A stretch of DNA of 64,000 bases from an uncultured Pelagibacteraceae bacterium (GTDB lineage Bacteria; Pseudomonadota; Alphaproteobacteria; Pelagibacterales; Pelagibacteraceae): NCBI GenBank assembly GCA_902576765.1, contig CACGWH010000003.1, positions 1 through 64,000 of the forward strand, in the 5' to 3' direction. Shown piece by piece: positions 36,366 through 53,152 of this stretch. The notes under the pieces are model-generated. The model did no database searches, was not told where the DNA came from, and saw nothing but the letters and a program-made list of their open reading frames with translations. The translations under genes were made by a program, and so were the position numbers. Position 1 is the first letter of the stretch. Each line of letters opens with the position of its first letter.

Positions 36366-36445
36366 AAATTTTATCAAAAAAGCCTTAATATAAAGATATT
36401 GCCTTATTTGACCAAAATACTTAGCTCATAGTATTATAATTAATT

Positions 36446-37156
36446 ATGATCTTTGCGGGTGATCATACCAACAAACTAACGGCCGCCAAAAACTTTTTTA
36501 GAATAATCGTTCTTTTGGCGATCTTAATTCTCCCAATAAATTCTGAAGCAAAAGACAAAAAACAAAAAGATTGTCAATATTGTAATAAATATGAACGAAT
36601 GGAAGATTGGCCAGTTTCAGAACGACCTAAAGAATTTGTCTATGAAGAAATAGATTATCCAGAGGGTATGTTCAAAAATAAAATTGATAGAAAAACTAGC
36701 AAAAATAGAAAGAGCTATGCTGGAAAAAAAGTTTACGAAAGATTTGTTAAAAAGAAAACAGGCTTAAACAAAAATCAACATTTAATGATAAGAGATATGG
36801 CTTATTTTGAAGCTCTTTATAATGAAACACTTAATGATCCAAGAGCTAAAGTTGAGTCTGTTGAGGGTTTAAAAAAAGGAAGAGAAGCGATGAGAATGAG
36901 TTTAAAGATTTCTCCAAAAGCCTCATCCTCTGAAGCAATATTAAAATTTTGGGCTACGGGAAAAATGTTAACAAAAGCACATAAATTAAATAAGAAAAAA
37001 AAGAAAAAAAAACAAAAGGAAGCTGTTAATCCAGATATAGCTGAAAGAGCAGCTGTTTTAGCAAATTTAAAAAAACAGATTGCATTAGCTAAGGTCAATG
37101 CGCAAAGAGCTGCCACGATCAAAGCACAAGATAAAATTAAAGAGGTGAAAGAATGA
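36446..37156 (+). CDS. Secreted/membrane-anchored Lys-rich protein of unknown function
   Basis: Hydrophobic signal FFRIIVLLAILILPINSEAKD, DCQYCNKYE motif, Lys-rich C-terminal half; ATGA overlap with the next gene. Confidence 0.65.
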   Translation: MIFAGDHTNKLTAAKNFFRIIVLLAILILPINSEAKDKKQKDCQYCNKYERMEDWPVSERPKEFVYEEIDYPEGMFKNKIDRKTSKNRKSYAGKKVYERFVKKKTGLNKNQHLMIRDMAYFEALYNETLNDPRAKVESVEGLKKGREAMRMSLKISPKASSSEAILKFWATGKMLTKAHKLNKKKKKKKQKEAVNPDIAERAAVLANLKKQIALAKVNAQRAATIKAQDKIKEVKE

Positions 37157-39651
37157 TAAGAAAAAATCTTTATCTGAGTTTAATTTTGTCCTTTACTCTT
37201 TTTTCACATAACCATTTATTGGCTAATGATGTTGCAAATATGTCAGGTATTTCAGAAGCTGCAGGTGAGTCTGCTGCAGCTGCAGCCTCGCAATTATCTA
37301 ATGATACAGGAGCGATTACTGCAAACATATCAAATGTAACAGAGGCTTTAAGTGCTGCAACTACAGAAGTTGGTGCTAAACTAGATGTTTCTATTGCACA
37401 AGCTAAAGCAGCAATGGATTTTGCGACTCAAAGTATCGAGGCAGGAAATTTAACAGCAGCTGTTCAAACAATGTCATTAGTTGAAAGTGTTGCTGACATG
37501 GCCTTAGGTTCAGTTCCAAACCCAACAGCACTTGATATGTCTGGAATTTCATTTGATGATTTTTCAGCAGATGAAATGGCAGCATTGTCAAGTATTGCTG
37601 GCACTATGGGAGTTGGAAAAGTAATGGCAGTTCAAAAAATGGCTGGTCAAATGGCAGTTGCAGAACAAGCAGGTTTTGACTCCAAAGGAATGATGGGTCA
37701 ATTAGATGCCCAGGGAATTGGAATTGGAACTGCAATGGGAGATTTAGCAAAAGCAGGAATGGTAAGTATGGAAGCAGTTTCTGGCGCAGCAAGTTTTAGT
37801 ATGGATAATTTTTCACCCGAAAATTTTGCTTCAATGAATGTTGCTGAAATGGGAATGTCACCAGCAATGATGGCTGGAGCTTTAGATTCACTGCCAGTAG
37901 GTTCTGCTGCTGCAGCTTTAGAGTCTTTACAAGAAAATCCAGGAGGTTTAGCAGGTAACTTTGGTGCAATGTCTGGAGCGATGACAGGAGCAATAGCTGC
38001 TAGCATGTCTGAAAAAGGAATGGGTGCCGAAATGATGGGAGCCATGGGAGCCTCTATGGGAGTAGAAGGTTTAGCAGAAGCAGCAAATGGAATGACAGGA
38101 TTAGCAGGTATGGAAGCAATGGGACAAGCAATGGCTACAATGGGAATGGAAAATGTTGGTGCTGCTTTGTCAACAGCATTTTCTTCACCTGCCACAGGAA
38201 TTACAGATGCAATGTCAGGAACAGTGGGTATGATTAGTTCTGCCATTGCAGGAAAAAGTCCAAAAGCAAAAACAGCAATTCAAGCAGGATCAGCAAAAGG
38301 AACTGTTGCGGCTGGAATGATTGATGCTGCTCCAGAAGCAGTTGAAATGCCAAGTGATATATCTGAAGCTGGTATGATGATGGGTGCAATGGTCATGGCT
38401 AAACCTACATTAGCCGCAGGATTACCTGGAGCTATGGCACCTCCAGATACAATGACAGCTGTGGGTTCACTGGCTGGGGCCGGAATTGGATCTGGACCTG
38501 CCGCTGCTTTAGCACCTGGAGTAGATTTTAGTCCAAATGAAATGGGTACAGCTATGGGTGAAATGGTTGGAATAGATGCTGGTGCCATGGGGACTTTAGG
38601 TATGGATAAAATGGCTGCACAGGTTGGAATGACACCAGGAATGGTTGCAAGTATTGGTGCAGCTGGAGTTGCTGGATTAGATGTTACTTCTGTAATGACT
38701 GCAAATGTTGCAGGATTAGGAAGTGTTGGAGTTCAAAGTTTAGCAGCAGCAGCAAAAGCTGGAGAAATGTCTGCATCACAAATGGGTGATATGATGGAAA
38801 CTGGTTTGGTTAATCAAGGGACAATGGCTGCAATGGGAAGCACAGGTATGAAAGGTTTTAGTGAGGCAATGGGAATGTCTGGTGGAAATATGGATATGGC
38901 CGCAATGACTGGTGGTATGACTGGTATGGGAAATTTAGATATGAACGCACAAATGAATCCTGAGATGGCTGCAGCTATGGGCGTAGCTGGACCACAAAAT
39001 GCAACGATAGGTGATGTAATGGGACCAGGTGCTGGACCAGGTGCTGTTGAAGGAGCATTAGGTGGTGTTGGTCAAATGGAAGGTGGAATGAATCTAGGAC
39101 AAGTCTCAGCAGCAATGGGTGCAGGAATAGATCCTGGTGCAGCGATGGGATCAGTAGCAGGAGCTGCAATGGCAGCCAATGAAGCTGGAGCAGGTTTAGC
39201 AGGAGCTGCAATGGGAGCTGCAATGTCAGCTCAAGGAGCAGCAGCCCAAGCAATGGGTTCAACTGCCATGGGAGGAGCCATGGGTGTTGGCGGAATGGGT
39301 GAAGGAGCTATGGGTGAAGCCATGGGCGGTGCTATGGGTGAAGCCATGGGCGGTGCTATGGGTGGAGCAATGGCTGGAGCAATGTCAGGTCAAGCTGGAG
39401 GTATGGGTCCAGGCGGTCCGATGGGAGATATGGGCGGCATGGGTGGTCCAGGTGGTCCAGGAGATATGGGCGGCATGGGAGGCCCGGGTGGTCCAGGTGG
39501 CTTAGGAGATTTAGGAGGTCCGGGAGGACCAGGTGGAGTTGGAGGAATGGGTCCAGGTGGTCCAGGAGATCCAGGCGGTCCAGGCGGTCCAGGTGGCCCA
39601 GGTGGCCCAGGAGGAGATCCAGGCGGTGGTGGCCAGGGTGGTGGTCAATAA
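37153..39651 (+). CDS. Large secreted Ala/Gly/Met-rich low-complexity protein with collagen-like GPG tail
   Basis: 832 aa with signal peptide (LILSFTLFSHNHLLAND); about 100 Met by hand count, no Cys or Trp seen; C-terminus GGPGGPGGPGGPGGDPGGGGQGGGQ. Confidence 0.85.
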   Translation: MIRKNLYLSLILSFTLFSHNHLLANDVANMSGISEAAGESAAAAASQLSNDTGAITANISNVTEALSAATTEVGAKLDVSIAQAKAAMDFATQSIEAGNLTAAVQTMSLVESVADMALGSVPNPTALDMSGISFDDFSADEMAALSSIAGTMGVGKVMAVQKMAGQMAVAEQAGFDSKGMMGQLDAQGIGIGTAMGDLAKAGMVSMEAVSGAASFSMDNFSPENFASMNVAEMGMSPAMMAGALDSLPVGSAAAALESLQENPGGLAGNFGAMSGAMTGAIAASMSEKGMGAEMMGAMGASMGVEGLAEAANGMTGLAGMEAMGQAMATMGMENVGAALSTAFSSPATGITDAMSGTVGMISSAIAGKSPKAKTAIQAGSAKGTVAAGMIDAAPEAVEMPSDISEAGMMMGAMVMAKPTLAAGLPGAMAPPDTMTAVGSLAGAGIGSGPAAALAPGVDFSPNEMGTAMGEMVGIDAGAMGTLGMDKMAAQVGMTPGMVASIGAAGVAGLDVTSVMTANVAGLGSVGVQSLAAAAKAGEMSASQMGDMMETGLVNQGTMAAMGSTGMKGFSEAMGMSGGNMDMAAMTGGMTGMGNLDMNAQMNPEMAAAMGVAGPQNATIGDVMGPGAGPGAVEGALGGVGQMEGGMNLGQVSAAMGAGIDPGAAMGSVAGAAMAANEAGAGLAGAAMGAAMSAQGAAAQAMGSTAMGGAMGVGGMGEGAMGEAMGGAMGEAMGGAMGGAMAGAMSGQAGGMGPGGPMGDMGGMGGPGGPGDMGGMGGPGGPGGLGDLGGPGGPGGVGGMGPGGPGDPGGPGGPGGPGGPGGDPGGGGQGGGQ
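39310..39357 (+). repeat. Perfect tandem 24-bp repeat x2
   Basis: atgggtgaagccatgggcggtgct twice in direct tandem (MGEAMGGA x2), inside the 832-aa ORF. Confidence 0.95.
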
Positions 39652-51272: not shown

Positions 51273-52145
51273 ATGACAATTAATAAATTAGCAATTATTG
51301 GTGGAAGTGGCTTATATGATGTAGAAGAATTTACTAATAGACAATTATTAGATTTAAATACCCCTTGGGGAAAACCCTCAGACCAAATTTTAAAAACAAA
51401 TTATAAAGATAAAGAGGTTTATTTTTTACCAAGACATGGCAGAGGTCATTTCATTTCGCCTTCCCAAATTAATTTTAGAGCAAATATTGATGCTTTAAAA
51501 CAATTAGGTGTAACAGATATAGTTTCAGTTTCAGCGGTAGGTTCTTTGAAAGAAGATTTACCTCCAGGAAAATTTGTTATAGTTGATCAATTTATTGATA
51601 GGACTTTTGCTAGAAATAAAACATTTTTTGATGATGAAATAGTTGCTCATGTTTCAATGGCACATCCAACTTCAAATGGTTTAATGAATGCATGCGAAGA
51701 AGCTATAAAAAAAGAGAAAATTGATTTTCAACGAAATGGCACATATGTGGTTATGGAAGGTCCTCAATTTTCAACATTAGCTGAGTCAAATCTATACAGA
51801 TCATGGAAAGCTGATGTTATTGGAATGACTAATATGCCAGAGGCCAAGTTAGCCCGTGAAGCCGAAATAAGATATGCATCAGTATCAATGATAACAGACT
51901 ATGATTGCTGGCATCCAGATCATGAAAATGTTGATGTTCAACAAGTCGTAAAAGTACTTTTAGGAAATGCAGCAAAAGCTAAAAACATGATAAAGAATTT
52001 AATAGAAATTTTTGAAAATCATATTGATCCAAAAGATCCAACAAATAATTGTTTAGATGTTGCAATAATTACAGCACCAGAAAAAAGAACTAAAAAGACT
52101 GAAGAAAAACTTAGAACTGTTGCAGGAAGGGTATTAAATAAATGA
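51273..52145 (+). CDS. mtnP: S-methyl-5'-thioadenosine phosphorylase
   Basis: IGGSGLYDVEEF, FLPRHGRGHFISPSQINFRANIDALK, GPQFSTLAESNLYRSWKADVIGMTNMPEAKLAREAE. Confidence 0.94.
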   Translation: MTINKLAIIGGSGLYDVEEFTNRQLLDLNTPWGKPSDQILKTNYKDKEVYFLPRHGRGHFISPSQINFRANIDALKQLGVTDIVSVSAVGSLKEDLPPGKFVIVDQFIDRTFARNKTFFDDEIVAHVSMAHPTSNGLMNACEEAIKKEKIDFQRNGTYVVMEGPQFSTLAESNLYRSWKADVIGMTNMPEAKLAREAEIRYASVSMITDYDCWHPDHENVDVQQVVKVLLGNAAKAKNMIKNLIEIFENHIDPKDPTNNCLDVAIITAPEKRTKKTEEKLRTVAGRVLNK

Positions 52146-53152
52146 AATTAGTTTTTTACCTATTTTTATCTTTATTCATCTCCATAAATATTTTGAGTGC
52201 AGAGTCTCGTTTTGGAGATTTGACAGAAATGAGAGATGATAGAATGAGAGGTAAGGATAATCAATGGGTTAGACCTCACCCTGGCCCCTTTGTTTGGAAT
52301 AATATAGAAAAAGAAGAGGGAGTTTTTTCTTGGGATAAAGCAGACAAATATGTAACCTATGCTCAAAATCATAATCAAAAGACAATAGCTACCATATGGC
52401 CGTATTCTAATTGGGAACAAAAATCATGTAAAAGAAAAAAAGGAAGAAGCCCGTTTGGAAAAAAGTTTGCAAAATATTTGAGCAAACCTTGTTCAATGGA
52501 AAATTATAAAAAATTCTTATTAGCATTAGTTGATAGATATGACGGTGATGGACAAAATGACATGCCAGGTTTAACAAAACCAATTATTTATTGGGAAATA
52601 ATGAATGAACCAGAATTTAGAATGTTTTTTAAAGGAACAGAGGATGATTTTGTAGAAATTTTTAATTTCTCCTCAAAATTAATAAAATCAAAACAAAAAG
52701 ATGCAGTCATTATAATGGCTGGTGCTGCCGGAATGTTTCCTGAAAGTAAAAAATTTTGGAAATCAGCTCTTCCTAAAATCAAAGATAATTTTGATATAGC
52801 TAACATGCATCACATCACACCCCCTGATGGAAAATGTGATAAAGATTTTTGGGTTGGTGAATTTTCTGAGTTATTAAAATCTTTAAGTATCAATAAACCA
52901 ATTTGGGTAACTGAAGCGATGACAGGTGTTTGTAAAGTGATACCAACTTATATCAATGCATTTGCCAGTGGTGCAGAAGTGATTATCGATGTTGGAGTTA
53001 ACGCTCCTGGCATGAAAATGAGTAAAGGCAGCAGAAAGAAACTTAATAATTTTATTGATGAAGTGGACGGTTTTAAATCAATAAAATTGATTTCAAATAA
53101 AAAAGCAGAATTTATCTTGAAAGATGGTTCTAAAAAGATAATTGATTTTTAA
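52142..53152 (+). CDS. Secreted clan GH-A-like glycoside hydrolase
   Basis: Signal peptide; IYWEIMNEPEF (acid/base-like E) and PIWVTEAMTG (nucleophile-like E); ATGA overlap with mtnP. Confidence 0.7.
   Translation: MKLVFYLFLSLFISINILSAESRFGDLTEMRDDRMRGKDNQWVRPHPGPFVWNNIEKEEGVFSWDKADKYVTYAQNHNQKTIATIWPYSNWEQKSCKRKKGRSPFGKKFAKYLSKPCSMENYKKFLLALVDRYDGDGQNDMPGLTKPIIYWEIMNEPEFRMFFKGTEDDFVEIFNFSSKLIKSKQKDAVIIMAGAAGMFPESKKFWKSALPKIKDNFDIANMHHITPPDGKCDKDFWVGEFSELLKSLSINKPIWVTEAMTGVCKVIPTYINAFASGAEVIIDVGVNAPGMKMSKGSRKKLNNFIDEVDGFKSIKLISNKKAEFILKDGSKKIIDF

Follow-up and report, generated by a model that had tools for sequence, protein, structure and literature searches.

Our analysis points to a pair of adjacent genes in Pelagibacteraceae (SAR11), here called SMALL and LARGE, which encode two predicted exported proteins and of which LARGE carries 100 Met residues that are conserved position by position. 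We read the pair as a two-component exported scaffold, tied to surface-polysaccharide enzymes, in which Met serves as the packing residue; as a whole, this reading appears to us about evenly balanced between right and wrong. SAR11 bacteria are among the most abundant cell types in the ocean, streamlined and dependent on reduced organic sulfur, and they cannot reduce sulfate. Hence, a conserved exported protein of approximately 830 amino acids with 100-130 Met residues is a strong sign of an undescribed extracytoplasmic function.

LARGE occupies positions 37153..39651 on the forward strand of the window, i.e. the whole stretch of 64,000 nucleotides that was analysed (genome G000, 0.83 Mb, approximately 65% complete). 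Translation confirmed a single reading frame with an ATG start for a predicted exported protein of 832 amino acids, as the first-pass annotation had read it, and a signal peptide is visible by eye at approximately residues 1-24 (MIRKNLYLSLILSFTLFSHNHLLA). The Met number, formerly counted by hand as about 100, is exactly 100 (12.0%), and the absence of Cys and Trp was verified (0 of each). Arg (1), Tyr (1) and His (2) are rare, and Gly, Ala and Ser make up 21.5%, 19.4% and 7.5% of the residues. The other genes of the window contain on average 2.6% Met (SD 1.4, maximum 6.4%), a comparison that had been proposed as a check. The signal peptide is followed by a predicted N-terminal helical domain (residues ~25-125; 37225..37527, forward strand), a predicted helical body rich in Met, Gly and Ala (residues ~126-745) and a disordered Gly/Pro tail (residues 746-832). 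The enrichment is confined to the body, with 15-18% Met family-wide versus 4% in the N-terminal domain, and can therefore not be explained by a genome-wide or translational bias.

The GC-rich island noted earlier is real, since LARGE has 47% GC versus a mean of 31% for the other window genes, but it does not stand as a sign of foreign DNA. It results from the codons of Gly, Ala and Met, i.e. from amino-acid choice, and GC at codon position 3 (22%) lies inside the range of the other genes (10-23%, mean 17%), so that the reading as a foreign island was discarded. The collagen-like tail proposed in the first-pass annotation is only weakly apt. The tail of the homologs is Gly/Pro-rich, a feature that LARGE has in common with the C-terminal tails of bacterial collagen-like proteins, but their sustained Gly-X-Y register is not found across the family: the longest Gly-X-Y run of the window protein comprises 20 triplets, but the family as a whole has a median of 6 and a minimum of 3, and there is no Pfam match. 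The collagen-like candidate was rejected. Searches with LARGE gave zero Pfam matches at E<=1 and no NCBIfam family above cut-off, a PDB sequence search with a 33-row LARGE profile returned no match, and the protein shows no recognisable motif for anchoring or sorting.

A scan of approximately 85,000 species genomes detected intact LARGE homologs in at least 32 other Pelagibacteraceae genomes, mostly single-cell genomes, and all loci from the named genome collection belong to this family. The reading frame is open in all 32 of these loci, whereas a frame disrupted in relatives had been named as evidence against a functional gene, and the proteins are 52-67% identical to the window LARGE. Within the order, the LARGE profile matched in 19 of 397 genomes, among them those with the Met-poor homologs and a genome with a single, very distant protein; the gene is thus accessory. 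No viral relatives were found among 2.9 million IMG/VR contigs, and a phage origin was rejected.

The costly investment in Met noted in the first-pass annotation is supported, and it is under selection. Between the window LARGE and its closest ortholog (G237), dN is 0.039 and dS 0.60 (dN/dS 0.065), and 98 of the 100 Met residues are kept. Across 33 sequences, pairwise identity is highest for Met (88%), followed by Gly (86%), Ala (80%), Leu (76%), Val (66%) and Ile (61%), and 87 of the 116 columns with a Met majority contain Met in at least 90% of the sequences. Met normally belongs to the more exchangeable residues, hence its position as the best-conserved residue is strong evidence of selection on Met itself. 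Every full-length Met-rich homolog contains 12-16% Met (100-130 residues each), lacks Cys and Trp and has 0-2 Tyr and 0-2 His. Because the Met residues are the best conserved and the exported partner is constant, LARGE is, judged from its sequence, a real and selected protein and not low-complexity noise.

The meaning of this Met conservation became clearer through full-length homologs in genomes G437, G342 and G231, which are 32% identical over approximately 720 positions and contain only about 3% Met. At 93 Met columns these proteins show Leu (28%), Ile (27%), Val (13%) or Met (16%), hence Met sits at hydrophobic positions. On this comparison, Met was swapped into hydrophobic core positions of the LARGE body. 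The Gly/Ala columns become Asn, Ser, Thr and charged residues, and the Gly/Pro tail is missing from the three closest Met-poor proteins. SMALL lies directly upstream in all three genomes. Together with the LARGE proteins of other SMALL pairs (319-1648 amino acids), these Met-poor proteins are true homologs with the same SMALL partner, and the three closest share the full-length layout, but they differ by Leu, Ile or Val at the Met positions and by a Met content of 1.3-3.4% versus 12.0%, the excess over paralogs that the first-pass annotation had expected; they have no description in Pfam or NCBIfam. Since every other LARGE protein examined is Met-poor, the Met enrichment is probably a derived state. 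The tree of SMALL is compatible with this direction and leaves the order of events unsettled. The Met-poor homologs represent a natural control for the question when evolution favours Met over Leu, Ile and Val in packing, and also for the question whether Met oxidation acts as an extracytoplasmic switch.

It could be argued that the composition reflects an economy of elements, in which LARGE, as an abundant secreted protein, was shaped by the saving of carbon and nitrogen and Met is a by-product of the avoidance of longer or N-bearing residues, with DMSP supplying the sulfur. LARGE contains 3.82 C and 1.08 N per residue, far below the 5.09 C (SD 0.24) and 1.32 N (SD 0.06) in the other window genes, and the Met-poor homologs are intermediate (~4.5 C and ~1.2 N). 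SAR11 requires reduced sulfur, for which DMSP in surface waters is considered sufficient (PMC5069961). However, such an economy accounts for Gly and Ala but not for Met: the replacement of Ile or Leu by Met saves just one carbon at the price of a sulfur, and neither Gly nor Ala is as strongly conserved as Met. We therefore regard it as a decidedly improbable explanation of the gene.

The spacing of the Met residues gives a further indication of their role. Met-Met pairs occur at i+4 with 1.5x the expected frequency and at i+3 at chance (1.07x), while they are depleted at i+1 (0.48x) and i+2 (0.44x), which we interpret as a helical periodicity. AlphaFold2 predicted short helices through the body and a disordered tail, with a mean pLDDT of 50 and confidence only at approximately residues 160-240 (pLDDT 73-86). 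Because this model is poor, the helical scaffold leans mainly on the sequence periodicity and the homologs.

The same spacing weighs against copper(I) binding or storage, one of the roles suggested in the first-pass annotation. As a thioether-rich exported protein, LARGE resembles periplasmic copper proteins of the CopC/PcoC, CrdA and CopI type, which are likewise exported and contain Met. These proteins use short Met/His clusters, whereas LARGE shows the depletion at i+1 and i+2, no Cys and only 0-2 His per protein, so that copper-type Met/His motifs are not a conserved feature. With clustered MxM/MxxM motifs and accompanying His or Cys lacking in LARGE, and zero copper genes recognised among the neighbours examined, we dropped the copper protein as a candidate and consider this role extremely unlikely. 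A Met reservoir, which had been suggested as well, found no support either, since a store would require Met content, whereas it is the individual positions that are conserved.

More can be said for a sacrificial oxidant sink, in which the 100 or more Met residues of LARGE would scavenge peroxide or hypohalous acid at the sunlit cell surface and be recycled by exported Msr. The very high and position-conserved Met content and the complete absence of Cys and Trp fit such a function, Met oxidation is chemically reversible, and Met accumulation in respiratory proteins has been interpreted as antioxidant. However, nearly all genomes encode MsrA and MsrB, whether or not they carry the gene. Extra MsrA copies with longer frames, of which the one checked has a signal-like N-terminus, are present in only a minority of the Met-rich genomes, and Met-poor genomes and genomes of non-carriers have them too; a coupling of Msr to LARGE was rejected, as the extra copies of exported length do not track the gene. 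Furthermore, a sink requires exposed Met, yet the Met residues of LARGE occupy former aliphatic positions in helical spacing. Hence, this function seems quite unlikely. As a separate observation, genome G241 of the SAR11 family encodes an MsrA with a signal-peptide-like N-terminus, which is probably exported (L134:1444-2067).

Oxidation of Met could also act on a physical state, if the Met-rich body phase-separated outside the cytoplasm into a redox-switchable condensate or gel that is dissolved by Met oxidation, as in Pbp1. The droplets of yeast ataxin-2 (Pbp1) are built on Met and are melted by H2O2 (review PMC8394241), and in this sense Met-rich sequences that assemble already have a precedent. 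In both proteins Met replaces aromatics in a low-complexity body and oxidation could tune the assembly: LARGE has a Gly/Ala/Met/Pro body with hardly any aromatics (12-16% Met, 0 Trp, 0-2 Tyr) and a disordered tail. But Pbp1 is a eukaryotic, cytosolic, RNA-binding and non-homologous protein, whereas LARGE is predicted to be exported, has many more Met residues in helical spacing and is conserved column by column. Unlike in typical condensate sequences, its conservation is position-specific and helical and not merely compositional, and the layout is unchanged in the Met-poor homologs. A condensate is therefore an improbable reading of LARGE.

The scaffold reading depends to a large part on SMALL, which precedes LARGE at 36446..37156 on the forward strand and encodes a predicted exported, all-helical protein of 236 amino acids with a CxxC motif after the signal peptide. 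Its stop codon overlaps the LARGE start (ATGA). A sigma-70-like promoter match (10 of 12 positions) lies just upstream of SMALL at 36408..36437 on the forward strand; it stems from a consensus scan, and promoter-like sites in the region show no excess over shuffled sequence. SMALL was found upstream of Met-rich LARGE in all 27 loci with a contig long enough for this test, including one (L129) in which the SMALL frame ends early, and it is 68-73% identical in the nearest relatives. More divergent copies of SMALL stand ahead of different long exported proteins (319-1648 amino acids), whose Met content is ordinary. The N-terminal domain of Met-rich LARGE aligns to that of the LARGE proteins of these other pairs with 96.7% probability in hhalign (E=4.5e-10, 141 columns), and homology between the Met-rich and Met-poor types runs on to approximately residue 190. 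In G269 (L072:6427-9171), SMALL and the LARGE N-terminal domain form a single ORF of 915 amino acids, whose profile-profile match to the LARGE N-terminal domain reached a probability of 98.9% (E=1.7e-17). Further ORFs of 578-713 amino acids in other genomes resemble SMALL-LARGE fusions by inspection. On these findings, SMALL and LARGE may be read as two parts of one unit in which the body is exchangeable.

SMALL itself has no Pfam match above cut-off and belongs to no NCBIfam family, and no homologs were found in 288 other genomes sampled from the class outside SAR11. An assignment as SHOCT-domain protein was rejected, because the PF09851 match (E=1.8e-6) was to the N-terminus of L078, a fused relative, and not to the window SMALL. 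AlphaFold2 predicted an all-helical structure with a pLDDT of 69, for which the best hit of a fold search in the PDB had E=1.9, i.e. no solved relative.

The link to polysaccharide enzymes comes from the gene neighbourhood. The window contains a gene for a putative exported glycosidase-like protein of 336 amino acids (52142..53152, forward strand) with NEP and TEA motifs typical of the catalytic Glu of clan GH-A, situated 12.5 kb from LARGE. Of the 31 loci that allow the test, 23 have it directly downstream of LARGE (gap -23 to +38 bp), and in the other 8 it is non-adjacent. Thirteen of 101 relatives have the gene, among them all six Met-rich carriers versus 7 of the 95 non-carriers (hypergeometric 1.4e-6, kinship ignored), and it is missing from the three Met-poor loci examined; some of the genomes are incomplete. 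E156 (MNEPE) and E258 (TEAM) are invariant in five glycosidase-like sequences, and matches to GH10, GH35 or xylanase families remained sub-threshold (PF00331, E=0.015; NF051902, E=0.0057; PDB xylanase, E=0.068). Moreover, 15 of 32 LARGE loci are situated among genes for polysaccharide lyase, alginate lyase, sulfatase, DUF1501 and DUF1800, often also with glycosyltransferases; the fact that this context is seen in only about half of the loci counts against the scaffold reading, as do the 8 loci with a non-adjacent glycosidase-like gene and its absence from the Met-poor loci. Elsewhere, genes for DUF1501 and DUF1800 proteins share their location with bacterial chitin synthase genes (PMC5122149). 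SAR11 single-cell genomes contain an island that encodes polysaccharide lyases, a sulfatase, DUF1501, DUF1800 and a protein resembling alginate lyase (L098:3416-6000, L097:13685-15178, L015:14349-15929); since polysaccharide degradation is regarded as poorly developed in this group, this was unexpected.

The sulfur link suggested by the nearby taurine genes found no support. Only 9 of the 32 loci have taurine transporter (tau) genes near the LARGE homolog, and in L101, the sole locus compared closely, the cassette lies on the opposite side of the taurine operon from the arrangement in the window; the proximity to sulfur genes is therefore no conserved operon. Searches of the window and of eight related loci detected no SAM or other riboswitch, and sulfur regulation via a riboswitch was rejected.

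In the two-component scaffold that we favour, SMALL and LARGE would be co-transcribed, as their overlap suggests, and exported by Sec, as their signal peptides suggest. The constant adjacency and the natural fusion are consistent with an assembly of both proteins via the conserved LARGE N-terminal domain. The LARGE body would then form a chain of short Gly/Ala-rich helices, packed by Met side chains at former Leu, Ile and Val positions and terminating in the disordered tail. Such an assembly most likely sits at the surface of the cell envelope or immediately outside it and may work with the glycosidase, polysaccharide lyases and sulfatase there; the earlier suggestion of a surface fibre is plausible in so far as LARGE may be a structural protein of the surface or envelope, with export resting on the signal peptide. 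Met may have been chosen because it provides a hydrophobic core that is flexible and adhesive and accommodates helices rich in Gly and Ala, and this core might be reversibly softened by oxidation, which would permit redox tuning. In its most far-reaching form, which we regard as doubtful, one branch of a SAR11 two-gene scaffold family turned its Leu/Ile/Val core wholesale into Met and has its cohesion set by reversible Met oxidation, i.e. a natural "methionine core" protein.

No description of a methionine-rich SAR11 protein was found in the open-access literature searched, and the LARGE family is undescribed as far as the Pfam, NCBIfam, PDB, viral and literature searches reach. The SMALL-LARGE pair points out a family of long exported proteins that lacks annotation, in bacteria otherwise credited with little surface machinery.

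Other bodies behind SMALL are diverse. Exported coiled-coil-rich SAR11 proteins of 1424-1648 amino acids each lie directly behind a SMALL copy (L012:5382-10325, L068:2065-6336, L069:2822-7276), and one of them, checked in part, showed no clear Pfam family. The Met-poor LARGE body of G437 (609 amino acids, L083:6870-8696) consists of repeats of approximately 30 residues (AGFSDxEIRDAVYAAGEI) like those of DotG/IcmE, with a match to NF033900 (E=2e-28) far below the cut-off of that family and a match to PF25296 above its cut-off. These AGFSxxE repeats are not present in Met-rich LARGE, and no type IV secretion genes were noted nearby. The G437 protein suggests that the body of LARGE is a repeat scaffold that can be exchanged.
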